The position numbers and the translations under genes are program-made. From contig NZ_WJBI01000003.1 in NCBI RefSeq assembly GCF_020804225.1, positions 44,518 through 90,040 of the forward strand: a stretch of 45,523 nucleotides of DNA, read 5' to 3'. This document shows positions 269 through 9,142 of the stretch, piece by piece (the first letter of the stretch is position 1; the number at the start of each line of letters is the position of its first letter). The notes beneath the pieces are model-generated. The model saw nothing but the letters and a program-made list of their open reading frames with translations, made no database searches and had not been told where the DNA came from. This DNA comes from Methanosarcina sp. DH2 (GTDB taxonomy: Archaea > Halobacteriota > Methanosarcinia > Methanosarcinales > Methanosarcinaceae).

Positions 269-2203
269 TTATGCCAGTTTTCCGGTTGTTCCTACACCGA
301 CTCCGACCAGACGGGTTTCCAGAGGGGCTTTTCCCCTACTTCCCACATCATTTTGTTTGAGGTCGAATTCTACATTTTCCATTTCAAGCCCGTACCCATC
401 CATGTATTCCAGAATCAGTCTGTGGCTGAGCTTAAGCCCGTAGTCCAGGGCTTCTCCATAATCTTCAAAGACCTCTTTTCCAAGCCTGGAGAATACAGAA
501 TATTCTGCTTTCCCTGCTGCTGAAGGGCGGATAAGGACCTCTGTCCTGTGGACTACTTTTCCTACAAGGGCGCCCACGGCATTTCCGACTTCATGGAAAG
601 CAGGAATCCTTATGTCTGCATCCACAGTCTCATTCAGTTCTTTCAGATACGCCCTTACAGGTGCGCCTACCAGCACTACAGGGACCTTTATGCGGAATTT
701 CAGGAAATTTTCTTTTACCAGAAGCTTTTCAATATCCTCTTTTTTCAGGTCCTCTGCAAAGAAGGAAATCAGTTCGAGAGTAAGTTTTCTTACGACTTCA
801 GCCTTAACCTGGGCTGAAAAATCCTCTGCCCCTTTTTTGAGGGTCTTTCCAAGAACTTTTGCTCCTATAAAGGAAGCCCTTCCGTCCCATCTTGCGTATT
901 CTCCAAGCACGTGCAGGGCGTCGGTTGGGGTAAACCCTATCTGACTGACGTGCCTTTTTCGGATGAGGCTTTTCAGAGTCCCTGCAAACATAAGCGGGTG
1001 TTTGCCTGTCCTCTCAGAGAGCTCCGATATCGAGAGGGGTTCTGTTCCCAGATGTTCGATAATTGCTCTCTCATCTTCTTCGAGATCCCCACTGAGAAGT
1101 TCAGGAGAGTTTATCCCGCTCCTTATGAAAAATGAGGTTGGCTGTATGATTTCATCCATTATGCGTTCGTTTGGGGCATCATCTTCCTCCAATTTCTTTA
1201 GAAGACCCGGGAACTCTGATGCTGCAAGACAGAGTGGAATAACCCTTGATGGCCCCAGATATGTTTTTCTTCTGATCCAGACCAGGCTATCTCCTCCGAG
1301 AGCTGAGGTCTCCATCCTGATCGCTTTTACCATGGTTTTCCAGCCCCCAACTCGTGCTCCCGAATCACTTATATCCGGTATGCCTCCGGAAATCATGGCA
1401 ATATCAGTACTTGTGCCTCCAACATCCACAGTTGCACAGGTATCCAGGCATGTGAGGTGTGCAGCTCCTACAAGGCTTGCTGCGGGTCCGGAAAAGATTG
1501 ATTCCACAGGTTTTTGCAGGGCTTCTTCTATGCGGACCAGGGACCCGTCACACTTCATCATCATCAGGGTTGCCTTTATCTCTTTTTCTTCCATTACTGT
1601 CTGGACGGATTTAATAAACTGTTTGCTTACAGGAATCAGTTCAGCGTTCAGGAGAGCTGTCACAGCCCTTTCGTAAGCCCCCAGGCTCATGGAAAGCTCG
1701 TGCCCGCAGACAACCGGCATGTCCGTTATTTCCTGAATTACTTCCTTTACCTTAAGCTCATGTTCCGGGTTCCTGACTCCGAAATAACCGGAGACTGCAA
1801 AAGCAGCCACTTTATTCTTTACCTGCCTGACAAACTCCCTGATTGTTTCCAGGTCTTCAAGGGGGGCAATTTCGTTCCCGTCCGAATCGTGCCCTCCTCC
1901 GATTGATATCACATAGCGACTGGCAAGTTTTTTGGGGATTGTATGCCCTATGAGGATTAGCCCTGCAGGATAGCCTTTGCCCTCAAGCGTAGTATTGGTG
2001 GCAAGGGTTGTAGAAACAGAAACGAATTTTATCCTTTTCAGATATCCCGGGTCCAGCCCTTCAATGGAATTCTTTATTCCCCTTATTAGGTCAGGATAAG
2101 TTGTAAGCGCTTTATTTGACTCAATCACATTTCCATTTGACATATCCATAATAGCGGCATCGGTATATGTCCCTCCAGTATCAATTCCCAGTCCCAGATA
2201 CAT
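269..2203 (-). CDS. Hydantoinase/oxoprolinase-family ATPase
   Basis: A 644-residue protein of the HyuA/N-methylhydantoinase A family, members of which use ATP to open cyclic amides or activate substrates. The ASKHA-type nucleotide site is visible at the N terminus (GIDTGGTYTDAAI, about residues 5-17) and a second glycine/threonine motif follows (VDVGGTSTDIAM). I chose the ATG at 2203 because GAGGAGG lies just upstream; a longer reading from TTG at 2221 would run through that ribosome site. The gene lies 620 bp downstream of the methyltransferase fusion on the same strand. No HyuB partner is visible. Family membership is clear; the substrate is not. A role in methylotrophic metabolism, or as an ATP-driven activator, is inference from location. 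Confidence 0.85.
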   Translation of the reverse strand: MYLGLGIDTGGTYTDAAIMDMSNGNVIESNKALTTYPDLIRGIKNSIEGLDPGYLKRIKFVSVSTTLATNTTLEGKGYPAGLILIGHTIPKKLASRYVISIGGGHDSDGNEIAPLEDLETIREFVRQVKNKVAAFAVSGYFGVRNPEHELKVKEVIQEITDMPVVCGHELSMSLGAYERAVTALLNAELIPVSKQFIKSVQTVMEEKEIKATLMMMKCDGSLVRIEEALQKPVESIFSGPAASLVGAAHLTCLDTCATVDVGGTSTDIAMISGGIPDISDSGARVGGWKTMVKAIRMETSALGGDSLVWIRRKTYLGPSRVIPLCLAASEFPGLLKKLEEDDAPNERIMDEIIQPTSFFIRSGINSPELLSGDLEEDERAIIEHLGTEPLSISELSERTGKHPLMFAGTLKSLIRKRHVSQIGFTPTDALHVLGEYARWDGRASFIGAKVLGKTLKKGAEDFSAQVKAEVVRKLTLELISFFAEDLKKEDIEKLLVKENFLKFRIKVPVVLVGAPVRAYLKELNETVDADIRIPAFHEVGNAVGALVGKVVHRTEVLIRPSAAGKAEYSVFSRLGKEVFEDYGEALDYGLKLSHRLILEYMDGYGLEMENVEFDLKQNDVGSRGKAPLETRLVGVGVGTTGKLA

Positions 2204-2823
2204 TACATTCCTCCTCTGCAACTTCTATGGCTGATGTTCTCTCACCTGCTTCGGTCTCTGTCTCTAACATTTCTACAGCCTACCTTACTTCTGCCCACTT
2301 TACCTCTGCTTTCTCCCAATTCTGAGAGCCCAACATTTTTTCAAAGGCAAAACCCTTTTTAAAAAAAGATCTTATAATTTTTACTTTGCGGCTTTTATAA
2401 TGGAGAGGGGCGGAGAAGACAAAGTCATATTAAATCCGCCCTTCAGGCTCTCTTTTTTTTGCTGCCTTTATAGTTAGTCCATCTCTTTTTTGTCCCACTT
2501 TTCATTTTTAGTCCCATTTTTCATCTTTATGGATTACATGCTGCTTTTAGTTTTTCTAAATGGAGGTTTCCCGCTTGTTCTTTACATAAAATAATGCGGT
2601 CTTCTGCTGATGCTCTGGAGCTCAGGAGCTAGATCAACTCCTGTATGGAGGTTAGAAAACGGTGAAAATGGTTTTTACTTTCTGTGGGTGTTTTTCTGTT
2701 TTTCCAAACTTTTAAAGGCCTTATGGAGATTTTTTTATTTGAGGCTCTGAACGCTATTGTTAAGTATTTGATCTTGATTTTAAATCGAAATGGGGAGAGG
2801 TTATTCACCTCATTAAAGAGAAT
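2204..2823 (-). other. Intergenic region between methyltransferase and hydantoinase genes
   Basis: About 620 bp with no credible gene on either strand. It is AT-rich with runs of T that could end transcription of the methyltransferase gene. It holds two adjacent 19-bp copies starting GTCCCACTTTTCAT (2492-2510 and 2511-2529). I see no convincing promoter or RNA gene. Confidence 0.5.
2492..2529. repeat. 19-bp tandem duplication, two copies
   Basis: Copies at 2492-2510 and 2511-2529 differ at only a few positions. The location is intergenic. The 19-bp period recurs in two other noncoding repeats of this window, at 10961 and 14301. Confidence 0.7.
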
Positions 2824-4728
2824 TTACCCCATTATCTTTTTCTGGAGTTCTGGACCGAACTCTTTTACTGTATTTACCATTGCCTGCACGGTGGTCAGCG
2901 GACCTCCGGGTGGGACTTCACAGCCAGTAGACAGGATATACTTGGACTGCAAGCCGTTCTCCTTGAGCACAGGTATCGCGTTTTCCAGCAGGGTTTTTGT
3001 GTCATCCCTGACCTTCTGCACACCTGCTGCAGAGCCGTCCATAAATTCAACAGGGTTTACTTCTCCCATCATGCAGCACATATCTCCGTATTTGGGGATG
3101 AGGTCTGCATAGTTCTGGGACCCCTTGTCCCTGGACTTCTCATAGTAGGCGTAGCTGTAAAGCGAAGTGCCAAACTTCTTGATCTGGGTCTCAAAGTGCA
3201 CAGCATCAGCGCAGTTGTGGATGATATACGGCTGATTGTACTGCTTGAATAGCGGGATGTGCTGGTCATAGACAAACTTCCCATCGAATTTCCAGTAGTC
3301 CTGCTCGCTCATAATAACGTTGTTTGACCAGAGGTTGTCAATACAGAGAGCATCACAGGCACCTTCGCTGAAAAAGAGTTCGGTGAGCTGGCAAATGTAA
3401 TCAGTACACTTCTGGACAGCTTCAAGGACAACATCAGGCTGGGTCTTCATGTCCATCAGGATGCGGTCTGCCCCCATCAGCTGGGTAAGGGTGAGCAGGG
3501 GACCTTCGTGGAAGCCGATAAAAGGAGTGTTGAGCTCTTTGTTGATTTTTTCCTTTGCCATCTTTGAAGCCATAACCAGTTCATAGCCACGGGTTCCTTT
3601 CTTGAGCTCAGGGACTTCAATCTTCTCATAGTCCTTGATGTGCCCTTCGGAGGACGGGGTATCGTCTTCAGGATATTTGATCTTACATCCGAAGTCCGCA
3701 GATGTAGCTGAAAGGTCGGCAAGGCCCACAAACATGTCAAGGTCAAGGTACTTGCAACCGAGGAAAGCGCTCTCTGTGAAAGCTTCTGCTTTTGTGGCAT
3801 AGTCCCTGTAGTTAACCCCTGCAAATTTTCTGAGGACACCGCAGGCAAGAGGATAGACAGGCAGGCGGTCGACCTTCTTGTCGGACATGGCGGATACCGT
3901 CCTGTCAATGTGGGTCATTTCCTCCTTGCTCTTCACACCAATGCTCTCGAACTCTTCTTTGATTTTGCTGGCAGTTTCAAGTCCGATATCCACTTTGTCG
4001 GAAACTGTCTTCTTTGCAAGGATCTCTCTGTACTTAATCTTCCCGAGGTTAATCTTCTCTTCACTCCACCTTGCAGCTTTGGGGTCGAGCTCCTTTACGG
4101 CTTCAGATGCCCAGGCGCTTGCGTGCATTGCATCAGGGTGGGTTGAATCAGCCCCAATTCCGGAGGCATATTCTTCGGAAACAGGAGCTCCACCAATCAT
4201 GATTTTTATGGAGTCACGTATGCCTTCTTCCTGAAGAATTTCAATGACTTTTTCCATATTGGTCATGGTTGTGGTCATCAGTGCGCTCATGGAAATAAGG
4301 TCAGCTTCGTGCTCTTTTGCGGTTTCGACAAACTTTTCTATGGGCACATCTGCACCAAGGTCGATCATCTTAAATCCGCCTGCACTGAGCATGGTCTTTA
4401 CCAGGTTCTTGCCTATGTCGTGTACATCTCCTTCAATGGTCCCTATGACTCCGACAGCCTGCAGGGCTCCCTCTTCCTTTGTCATTTCAGGGGAGAGGAT
4501 ATCCATGCCCGCGTACATTGCACCTGAAGCCAGGAGCAGGTGAGGTACAAAGGCTTCGCCTTTCTCATACTGGTCACTGACAATTGCCATCCCTCTTGCC
4601 AGCCCATTGACGATTGCGTCGTAGGGGTCAACGCCCTCGTTAAGTGCCTTCTGTGCCAGTTCTTCTGCAAGATCGTCGTCTCCGTCGACGACAGCTTCCG
4701 CTAATTGGTTTAAAATATCTGCTGCCAT
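2824..4728 (-). CDS. mtsD: Fused corrinoid protein/methyltransferase (Mts type)
   Basis: A 634-residue fusion. Residues 1 to about 215 are a MtaC-like corrinoid protein with a helical cap and the DxHxxG cobalt-ligand motif (D101, H103, G106). From about residue 250 it is a MtaA/MtbA-type methyltransferase of the uroporphyrinogen decarboxylase fold, with the zinc ligands of that family visible as H504-x-C506 and C603 near the end. Proteins of this architecture in Methanosarcina act in methylated-sulfur (dimethyl sulfide/methanethiol) metabolism, moving methyl groups to or from coenzyme M. The ATG at 4728 is preferred to one at 4746 because GGAGGA falls between them. It is preceded by a long leader and by its likely regulator and kinase. 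The choice of symbol mtsD over mtsF or mtsH rests on remembered gene order; the family call is firm. Confidence 0.9.
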   Translation of the reverse strand: MAADILNQLAEAVVDGDDDLAEELAQKALNEGVDPYDAIVNGLARGMAIVSDQYEKGEAFVPHLLLASGAMYAGMDILSPEMTKEEGALQAVGVIGTIEGDVHDIGKNLVKTMLSAGGFKMIDLGADVPIEKFVETAKEHEADLISMSALMTTTMTNMEKVIEILQEEGIRDSIKIMIGGAPVSEEYASGIGADSTHPDAMHASAWASEAVKELDPKAARWSEEKINLGKIKYREILAKKTVSDKVDIGLETASKIKEEFESIGVKSKEEMTHIDRTVSAMSDKKVDRLPVYPLACGVLRKFAGVNYRDYATKAEAFTESAFLGCKYLDLDMFVGLADLSATSADFGCKIKYPEDDTPSSEGHIKDYEKIEVPELKKGTRGYELVMASKMAKEKINKELNTPFIGFHEGPLLTLTQLMGADRILMDMKTQPDVVLEAVQKCTDYICQLTELFFSEGACDALCIDNLWSNNVIMSEQDYWKFDGKFVYDQHIPLFKQYNQPYIIHNCADAVHFETQIKKFGTSLYSYAYYEKSRDKGSQNYADLIPKYGDMCCMMGEVNPVEFMDGSAAGVQKVRDDTKTLLENAIPVLKENGLQSKYILSTGCEVPPGGPLTTVQAMVNTVKEFGPELQKKIMG

Positions 4729-4877
4729 AAAAAACGCTTCCTCCATTTTTACAGGTATTTCCTGGTTAACAGTTAGTAGCTCAATTTAGCTCAATTAAGG
4801 CTCATTGCTCAGTAAGCCTCTGTATGACTGTTAACTTCCGATCATACATTAATTGCAAAACATATAACATAAACGCA

Positions 4878-5382: not shown

Positions 5383-6171
5383 TCATTCGATTTCCTTTAT
5401 TTCCTTTGAGTTTTTCATGTAATGCAAAAAGAGGTCTTCTCCCCATTTCAGGGCTGTTTTTTCCATGCTCAGCATTGCATGATTGTGGTATATCCCGTTT
5501 CTATAAAAGAGGGAGAGAGCTAGAAAATGGTCCGTTACTACACTTGATGCCACCTTTACAGGGCAGTCACAGACAAAGATTTTCGCATTATCTCTGTCCA
5601 GATATTCCCTGAGGGATACGCTATATTCTTTTTTCAGTCTTTCAAATACTGGCTTTGTGATTATCAGAGATACGTCAGTTCCTTTTTTCACGAGCTCAAC
5701 ATAGGTTGACGGGTAGGCAGGGTTAAAATAAGAGGAAACTTCCATAACATGGGTTGACCTGCTCAGTTTTTCTTCTATTTTCTGGGGGATTTCATACATC
5801 CGATCAAGGTCGGGCTCAATGAATTCACAGTGCCCGAGGTCATCTATTCGGTCCAGAAGGTTGACAGGGATTGCACTAATATTATGGTTCTCCCAGTAGT
5901 CCATATTCTCTGAAAACACTCCAAGGGTGTTAAGAAGAGGCCTCATTTTCTTGACTACTACCTTCCCGATATCCGAGAGTTTGTAAAGGTCATCCTCATG
6001 AGTAATAAGCCCCTGGCTGATGAGGATTTTGATCTGGGTCATGATCGCACTTGAAGTCACATTCAGTATGTTTTTTATCTCGTCAATGTTTCGGGGCTCT
6101 TCCATCAGCAGTAAAAGAAGGTCTTTCCTTTTGTCCGAGAGAAAAAGAGTGCCCAGTAGTTCCAGTTTCAT
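5383..6171 (-). CDS. msrF: Msr-type methyltransferase regulator (winged HTH + DUF1724)
   Basis: A 262-residue regulator. Residues about 8-80 form an ArsR-like winged helix (DEIKNILNVTSSAIMTQIKI is the recognition region), and the rest matches the C-terminal domain usual in Methanosarcina Msr/FilR-like proteins (DUF1724), with DHFLALSLFYRNGIYH near the end. Msr proteins turn methanol or methyl-sulfide methyltransferase genes on or off. The start has GGAG upstream (minus strand, about 8 nt). It sits 73 bp after the kinase gene and upstream of the methyltransferase fusion, so it is the obvious regulator of the latter. Two cysteines in FVCDCPV could be redox-sensitive, but that is speculation. 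The symbol is assigned by context. Confidence 0.85.
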   Translation of the reverse strand: MKLELLGTLFLSDKRKDLLLLLMEEPRNIDEIKNILNVTSSAIMTQIKILISQGLITHEDDLYKLSDIGKVVVKKMRPLLNTLGVFSENMDYWENHNISAIPVNLLDRIDDLGHCEFIEPDLDRMYEIPQKIEEKLSRSTHVMEVSSYFNPAYPSTYVELVKKGTDVSLIITKPVFERLKKEYSVSLREYLDRDNAKIFVCDCPVKVASSVVTDHFLALSLFYRNGIYHNHAMLSMEKTALKWGEDLFLHYMKNSKEIKEIE

Positions 6172-6244: not shown

Positions 6245-9142
6245 TCAATAATTCTTTTTTGGAAGCCTTACATGCATCGTGGTTCCCGAACCTTCCTCGC
6301 TTTCTACCCAGATTTCCCCTTCATGAGCGTTGACAATGTTTTTACAGATATAGAACCCTGATTCAAGTCCCTGGTACCTGCGGGTCATGGAATCGTCAAC
6401 CTGGTAGATCCTGTGGAAAAGGTGAGGGATCAGCCTTTTATGGATACCTGTCCCGCTGTCTTTTACGGTTATGTGGATATTGCCTTCTTCCTCTGCAGCT
6501 TTTACTTCCAGTGTCCCGCCGTGAGGCGTAAACTTGATTGCATTGCCCATGAGAGTAGTGAACAGATCTGTCAGTTTCTGTTTATCACCCCGGATTGGTT
6601 GCAGGTTTGCAGGCAGTTCCTTCTCGACTTTCAGTTCTTTTTCATCTATCAGGAGTATCAGGTTAAGGTACACATCCGAAAGTATCTTTTTTATCTCGAC
6701 TTCGGCAAAAGAGTATTCGATCTTTCCTGCCTGTTCAAGACTCAGGTAGAGCAGGGAATCTACCATTTGTTTCAGCCTCTCCGAACTGTTAATTACTGCA
6801 TCTATAGCTTTCTGCTGCTGGTCTTCGATGGTTTCCAGGGTCTCGAAATCCATAAGGTCACTGTAATTTACTTTTATCTGAGGCAGGCTTTCAGCCATAA
6901 ATTCCGCTTTTATCCGGTTAAGGGACCTGAGTTCATCATTAGTTTTAGAGACGTCTTCAGAGTGAGCTTTAAGAGCATCTTCAAGCTGCTTTCTCTGGAT
7001 GAGCTGCCACATACCCTGCATGAGAAGGGTCAGCTGGCGTAAGTCCGATTCGTCATAAGGCTCGTCCTTATTTCCCACACCTGCAACTGCAACTATCCTA
7101 TCCCCGTCAAATACAGGCACGTTTACATGGCGGGTAAGGTGAACATGGTCTTTTGGATACCCTTTTTTCAGGGAACTGGGAGCCGTATAATCGTTCGTGA
7201 TAATGGGTTTACGCTGCCGGATTGCCTCTCCCCAGAGCCCTGTTGTTTTCACGGGATAAATAAAGCGCTTGTCTTCGATTGCACATTCTTCCATTGCGCT
7301 CTTTGACCAGGAATGCATGATCAGGGAGGTCTCATAGGCGTCCATAAACGCAAGGTACCCGAGTTTGCTGCCTGTAAGTCTGACCGCTTCTTCCCGGGCA
7401 AAGTCTGTTATTTCTTTTAAAGAGGCTCCTGTCATCCGGTTTAGCTTTACAAGGGCTTCGAGCCGGGCTTCATTAAGTTTCTGTGCTGCTTCGGCTTTCT
7501 TGCGTTCAGTAATGTCTCTGGCAACCGAAAGGATCGTTTTCTTCCCTTCGTAATTAATGATCCTGGCACTGACTTCAAGGGGGACAACTGTGCCGTCCTT
7601 GCAGATTGCTCCTGCTGCGTAAACCCTTGATCCCTCACTCTGAATCTTTTTAAGGTTCTCGCGGACAGAGTCCCAGTATTCAGCAGGGATAATCTCTTCG
7701 GCTTCCATTTTCAGGATCTCTTCTTTATCATATCCCAGCCGGTTTTCAACTGCCTGGTTTACATCCATGTAGCTTTTTCCTTCAGGTTCGCGGATATATA
7801 GCTGGTCATTGATATTATTGAAAATTGTCCTGAACTTATGCTCGGACTCCCGCAGGGTCTCTTCTGCCAGTTTATGTTCTACCGCTATCGCTGCCAGCTG
7901 GGCATTTGTTCTCATAAAATCCAGATCCTCTTTCTCTGGCCTGTGCGCCTCGCCGTAGTACATGGAAATAACCCCAAGGACTTCTCCAAAGGATGAAATT
8001 ATGGGTTCTGACCAGCAGGCTTTCAGCCCTGCCTCAGCTGCAAGTTCCCTGTATTCTGTCCAGTAAGGGTGTTCCATTACATTATCCACGGTCACCCTTT
8101 TTTTCAAGAAGGCTGCGGTTCCGAACGAAGTCGCTCCAAAGCCTACCTCAATCCCGTCAGTCTTCTGCCTGTAAAACTCCGGAAACCCTGGAGCAACGCA
8201 GTAAAAGAGATGTTTTTTCTCCCGGTCAAGCAGCATTACCGAGCATATGGAACCTGGTCTGATCTTTTCCATATTCCGAATAAGAAGGAGAAACACTTCT
8301 TCTAATGGAGCTCCGGAAGCTAGTTGACCGAGTACCATATTCTGTCCTTTAACCATTTCTTCAGCCAGTTTGCGCTCGGTTATATCCACGATTATGCCCT
8401 GGTAGTAAGTGATTTCTCCTTCTTTGTTTCTTCTGATAAGGGTCCTGTCATCGATATATCTTATCTTCCCTGACTTCGTAAGGACCCGATATTCCTAGGT
8501 ACATTCAGTATATCCGTTTCTGGAAAACTTTTCAACTTCAGTGCGAATTCTTTCCCTGTCCCCGGGATGGATAAGATCTGTGTACAGCATTCTCCTTGAG
8601 GTGAAATCTTCCGGGGTATAGCCAAGCTTTGTAATGTTTTCAGAAACGAATTCAACAGGCCAGCCCTCTTCAGGCCTGCATAAAAATACGAACACAGGGC
8701 TGCTGTTTATAACATTTTTCAATTCATTCTTCTTTTTCAGAGCTTTTTGCATCGATTCCTCAGCTTTTTTACGCTGCGTAGCGTCGCAGAGAGTGCCCTG
8801 ATAATGGCTAACTTTTCCATCCTCATCTCTTCTGACAAGAACTTTCACTTCACTCCACCGTGTTTCTCCTGAAGCTGTCAGTATTCTGTACTCCTGTGTC
8901 AGCTCAGTGCACCCCTTCTCCGAGAATTCGGCAACCTCCGATTTTACTCTTTCAACATCCTCAGGATGGACAATATCGAGATACCGGATATTTCCTGAGA
9001 TGAAGTCTTCAACTGCATATCCGAACTGCCAGATATTTTCCGTGATAAGTTCCACAGGCCAGCTCTCAGTTGATTTGCACAAAAAAATGACTATAGGGCT
9101 GCTGTTTATAAGCGATTCCAGATTTATATCGAATTGTTTCAT
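6245..9142 (-). CDS. rdmS: PAS/GAF sensor kinase with in-frame amber codon (RdmS/MsmS type)
   Basis: Read through the TAG at 8495-8497 this is one 965-residue protein: PAS1 (about 8-125), PAS2 (about 140-255, holding the amber at residue 216), GAF1 (about 275-425), PAS3 (about 437-550), GAF2 (about 565-715) and a kinase end (about 745-965) with N-box GNAIKF. The sequence just after the amber completes PAS2, so the two open halves are one gene. In PAS1 the equivalent residue is Gln (LTQEYRI against CT-amber-EYRV). GAF2 has a cysteine (Cys620, in MEECAI) at a place where heme-binding kinases of this type may hold heme. The usual phosphoacceptor histidine is missing and the G2 box is degenerate. 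Known relatives sense redox state and work with Msr regulators. The amber may be read as pyrrolysine or may break the gene. Confidence 0.8.
8495..8497 (-). other. Internal amber codon (possible pyrrolysine)
   Basis: TAG lies in frame at codon 216 of the kinase gene; the frame stays open for 749 more codons with clear homology. Methanosarcina decodes some TAG codons as pyrrolysine. A CAG-to-TAG change from the Gln seen in PAS1 would be a single transition. Whether it is decoded cannot be seen from the sequence. Confidence 0.75.

Follow-up and report, generated by a model that had tools for sequence, protein, structure and literature searches.

A conserved amber codon in the PAS2 domain of the sensor kinase gene rdmS of Methanosarcina is kept by selection and very likely decoded as pyrrolysine

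We analyzed a 45,523-nucleotide stretch of DNA from Methanosarcina sp. DH2 (contig NZ_WJBI01000003.1, positions 44,518 to 90,040; hereafter the window), in which the minus strand between positions 6245 and 9142 encodes a multi-domain sensor kinase. Counting TAG as a residue joined the region into a single open 965-residue frame, in which TAG occurs only once, at codon 216 (8495–8497). Pfam searches resolved the order PAS1 (residues ~7–130; 8753–9124), PAS2 (residues ~140–254; 8381–8725; PF08447 and PF00989), GAF1 (residues ~280–421; 7880–8305), PAS3 (residues ~453–546; 7505–7786), GAF2 (residues ~573–716; 6995–7426), and a HATPase_c ATP-binding domain (residues ~852–963; 6254–6589), all on the minus strand; the placement of PAS1 and PAS2 also drew on predicted secondary structure, and Cys620 in GAF2 was invariant in 33/33 aligned homologues. 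PAS1 and PAS2 resemble each other, and their comparison gave Gln83 (CAG) as the PAS1 equivalent of residue 216. An earlier sequence-only reading had put the TAG at 8495 inside PAS2 and had noted the Gln codon in PAS1, and it was right on both counts. More precisely, codon 216 lies in a predicted strand, Gbeta (residues 213–221), in the secondary structure of an AlphaFold2 model. When the whole model was searched by fold against the PDB, the matches were phytochromes and generic multi-domain sensor kinases. By eye, the H-box region reads AEFMAESLPQIKV as against the usual SHELRTP, and the phospho-accepting His is apparently missing.

The window copy was 88% identical over 963 residues, with the same domain order, to a copy in an M. 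acetivorans-like genome (L028/L071 in G001), which we take to be RdmS (MA0863) of Methanosarcina acetivorans. The two share sequence, domain order, neighbors and the amber codon at position 216, and only the species differs. RdmS was reportedly described by Fiege and Frankenberg-Dinkel in 2019 as a "methyltransferase associated sensor kinase." In both genomes rdmS is flanked by phoU and by a gene for an msrF-type transcription regulator, which in the window adjoins rdmS (5383–6171, minus strand) and carries an ArsR-like HTH and a FilR1_middle domain by Pfam. The neighbors in the window also include a gene for a hydantoinase-like protein and one for a corrinoid protein fused to a URO-D/MtaA-like methyltransferase of the MtsD/F/H type (2824–4746, minus strand), the latter assigned by domain search. 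The link to methyl-sulfide use that had been drawn for this kinase fits these neighbors and published work on RdmS (PMC6944256). We also observed that the hydantoinase/oxoprolinase-like gene (269–2221, minus strand) adjoins the fusion methyltransferase gene, and that frames similar to these two adjoin msmS in L069 and L070, as judged by eye. There are hints in these gene orders that the hydantoinase-like protein might work with methyl-sulfide methyltransferases, perhaps in corrinoid reactivation.

A further comparison is with MsmS (MA4561), a paralogous heme sensor kinase that is 60–62% identical to RdmS over the full length, has the same PAS-PAS-GAF-PAS-GAF-ATPase order, and likewise adjoins an MsrF/G-type regulator. 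Unlike RdmS, MsmS has Lys (AAG) at position 216, Phe at 214 and Trp at 155, and no amber codon. An internal TGA in the MsmS copies was considered and rejected, as their frames read through cleanly and the TGA is apparently terminal.

We then searched 112 genomes of the family with stops read through. Full-length rdmS was found in 16 of them (12 Methanosarcina species and four of a sister genus), and each of the 16 copies contained exactly one internal stop, a TAG at the identical aligned codon; an rdmS with a sense codon at position 216 was found in none of the 112 genomes. The comparison across orthologues proposed in the sequence-only reading gave TAG throughout, the opposite of sense codons in all of them. 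At the corresponding site, three MsmS copies had AAG (Lys) and 14 outgroup kinases had Gln. A misread CAG, one transition away from TAG, cannot account for this pattern: nothing beyond that single transition speaks for a sequencing or assembly error, and the same codon recurs in 16 separately sequenced genomes, several of them complete. In a phylogenetic tree, RdmS copies formed one clade apart from MsmS with a support of 100/99 (the L012/KYL-1 row duplicates the G022 record and was left out of the tree and of the retention test described below). Because this clade is fully supported, the simplest reading of the sequences is that the TAG had a single origin, at the base of the RdmS clade. The ancestral triplet would have been a Gln or Lys codon, changed after the split of rdmS and msmS and held thereafter by purifying selection.

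Under translation table 11 the gene splits into two ORFs in the same frame, one of 215 residues that ends at the TAG (8495–9142) and one of 714 residues that begins with GTG (6245–8389), as would be expected of a pseudogene or of two genes, one for a PAS protein and one for a kinase downstream of it. We consider a premature stop of either kind very improbable. Such a stop would cut the PAS2 fold in strand Gbeta, and the earliest start codon downstream of the TAG is the GTG at codon 252, so that reinitiation would drop most of PAS2. To quantify constraint along the frame, pairwise dN/dS was calculated by the Nei-Gojobori method with the window copy as the reference. The ratio was ~0.06–0.12 before codon 216 and ~0.03–0.07 after residue 251. 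Codons 217–251, which precede any start and would be untranslated if synthesis resumed at GTG 252, gave ~0.04–0.09, a range drawn from about half of the pairs, as dS was saturated in the rest; this low dN/dS counts against a restart. The identical layout in 16 genomes and the lack of other decay point the same way. Pseudogene, split gene and sequencing error were all discarded on the combined strength of the 16-genome conservation and dN/dS. The suggestions that the frame is intact on both sides of the codon and belongs to one kinase, and that the gene is not an old pseudogene, were therefore borne out by the 965-codon frame with its full-length match to RdmS, by the absence of a second internal stop, and by dN/dS far below 1 on either side.

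Next, we asked how often a TAG would survive in all of these species by chance. A codon model was applied with rates taken from 202 four-fold sites on a 16-species tree (four-fold tree length 4.7); across the same species, 11/202 four-fold sites were unchanged. If sense replacements were neutral, the probability of TAG being kept at all 16 tips was 7.1e-6, and at one quarter of the neutral rate it was 0.045. Since neutral retention in 16 species is so improbable, the UAG at position 216 is kept by purifying selection, and it follows that pyrrolysine, or UAG itself, matters in RdmS. A residue that is merely a neutral passenger, with any amino acid tolerated, has been proposed for Thg1 of M. acetivorans. 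For RdmS, the Gln of the outgroup kinases and the Lys of MsmS would suit such a passenger, as would the folding of an O216K variant (PMC7542351), but the retention test speaks strongly against it. Moreover, Thg1 resembles RdmS in carrying the residue outside the methyltransferases, but its amber codon is limited to one species and was judged neutral (PMC2933860), whereas that of rdmS is selected and is kept in 16/16 species of two genera with no exception. A Thg1-like neutral pyrrolysine was thus rejected on the codon-retention test, and we regard it as improbable.

The genome of the window has what is needed to decode UAG. tRNA-Pyl (CUA), PylS, PylB, PylC and PylD were found in one cluster, and mtmB of the same genome, used as a positive control, had its expected TAG. 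Among the 16 genomes with rdmS, PylS scored above the cut-off in 15, the exception being a genome (G027) that is 60% complete. We did not find a PYLIS-like stable RNA structure after the UAG (z-score −0.88), and the region downstream of codon 216 gave a weak consensus fold with a covariation term of −0.57 kcal/mol, in which no cis element was seen. This agrees with pyrrolysine insertion needing no such structure, as a PYLIS is not required (PMC8211752). Two further observations were made on these genes. The mtmB match was split between two different reading frames (profile positions 65–450, with the TAG, and 2–67; L077 and L079, G000:C26:449276-450623), as if by a frameshift near the start, which could be an assembly error. 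In pylB (L080, 9319–10434, minus strand), the frame runs on past a TAG if that codon is taken as sense, and the PylB match stops before the extended frame ends, in agreement with the published assignment of this TAG as a true stop (PMC2933860).

Overall, amber codon 216 of rdmS is very likely decoded as pyrrolysine. Of the two possibilities raised in the sequence-only reading, pyrrolysine or nonsense, the former is strongly supported by the TAG in every orthologue, purifying selection through the codon and the complete pyrrolysine machinery. We infer that incorporation occurs in Methanosarcina sp. DH2 itself. In the process that we propose, tRNA-Pyl and PylRS would let the ribosome read UAG 216 as pyrrolysine; no special mRNA signal would be needed, and the release factor would compete. 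The product would be a single full-length, soluble PAS-PAS-GAF-PAS-GAF-ATPase sensor protein, possibly with a 215-residue PAS1 fragment as a by-product, and RdmS would act together with the neighboring MsrF-type regulator on methyl-sulfide methyltransferase genes. We hold with high confidence that the gene is rdmS, that its selected UAG is read as pyrrolysine, and that one full-length sensor results which works with the MsrF-type regulator on methyl-sulfide genes.

RdmS and its Pyl216 are already known in the literature. O is the one-letter code for pyrrolysine. The Frankenberg-Dinkel group made the protein in E. coli as RdmS_O216K (PMC7542351), a name which implies that residue 216 had been recognized in print as pyrrolysine. 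In addition, one of the better candidates for a selected UAG in a 2013 survey was a cluster in which a "sensory transduction histidine kinase" of M. acetivorans occurs with an in-frame hypothetical protein (PMC3639795). An rdmS annotated as two pieces would look like this, although identity with the same gene is not proven. The strict 16/16 conservation, the single origin and the residues Cys155 and Cys214 (see below) are apparently additional, in that no report of them was found in a search of papers other than the original RdmS paper. According to a review, the known pyrrolysine proteins are limited to methyltransferases, some transposases and Thg1 (PMC8211752). MtmB, MtbB and MttB share with RdmS a UAG read as pyrrolysine by the same pyl machinery and conserved across species under selection, but in these enzymes pyrrolysine belongs to the active site (PMC8211752), whereas in RdmS it lies within a sensor PAS domain. 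A pyrrolysine maintained by selection in signaling would clearly exemplify the use of the 22nd amino acid outside methylamine catalysis, or else of UAG as a regulatory gate.

Conservation alone cannot tell whether selection favors the residue or favors UAG as a stop under regulation. In the latter case, synthesis of full-length kinase would require an ample supply of charged tRNA-Pyl, and the residue itself would be unimportant. The conservation of the codon fits this equally well. Pyrrolysine is dispensable for folding and heme binding, as RdmS_O216K from E. coli does both (PMC7542351), and the retained heme binding is again as a gate would have it. MsmS lacks the codon, so that only one of these two related sensors would be gated, and in the bacterium Acetohalobium UAG decoding depends on the growth substrate (reviewed in PMC8211752). 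On the other hand, no regulatory element was seen at codon 216, and the fixation of Cys155 and Cys214 in the same domain suggests a change in the domain that a pure gate would not need. We consider the gate a real but minor possibility, and the same holds for its corollary, that methyl-sulfide gene control would be coupled to methylamine and pyl status. The sequence-only reading had proposed, as a hypothesis, cross-talk of this sort between methylamine and methyl-sulfide metabolism through a pyrrolysine-limited level of the kinase.

A role for the residue itself was considered from the alignment of PAS2. Three positions of this domain set RdmS apart from MsmS and the outgroup, namely Cys155 (8678–8680, minus strand), Cys214 (8501–8503, minus strand) and codon 216, where the others have Lys or Gln. 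Position 155, always Cys in RdmS, is Trp in MsmS and usually Trp but sometimes Arg in the outgroup; position 214 is likewise always Cys in RdmS, with Phe in both MsmS and the outgroup. This grouping is suggestive only, because the alignment contained 51 sense-residue positions in all that are invariant in RdmS but different in the others, with ~17 of the 51 lying in PAS1 and compared with MsmS only, as the outgroup has no sequence there. Cys214 shares the predicted strand of Pyl216, and by alternation the two side chains would point to the same face. We infer that Pyl216 contributes to PAS2 jointly with the RdmS-specific Cys214 and Cys155. It is conceivable, though we think it rather doubtful, that the electrophilic imine of Pyl216 forms with the two cysteines a site for sensing small molecules or thiol redox state that sets RdmS output. 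Such a site might, for instance, bind amines or sulfur nucleophiles reversibly as adducts. M. acetivorans RdmS has covalently bound heme and shows thiol-dependent behavior (PMC7542351, PMC7278568).

If Pyl216 does sense, biochemistry on the O216K protein was done on a molecule that lacked the sensing group. As the E. coli variant is O216K, native RdmS with pyrrolysine may never have been assayed. In a 2025 revision, RdmS is given as an ATP-hydrolysing kinase that is not an autokinase, with protein produced in E. coli (PMC11784639); the non-autokinase result may need to be repeated on native RdmS. Finally, a second PAS-domain protein with a single in-frame TAG was observed in a Methanosarcina genome (L039, G015:C14:27906-28706).
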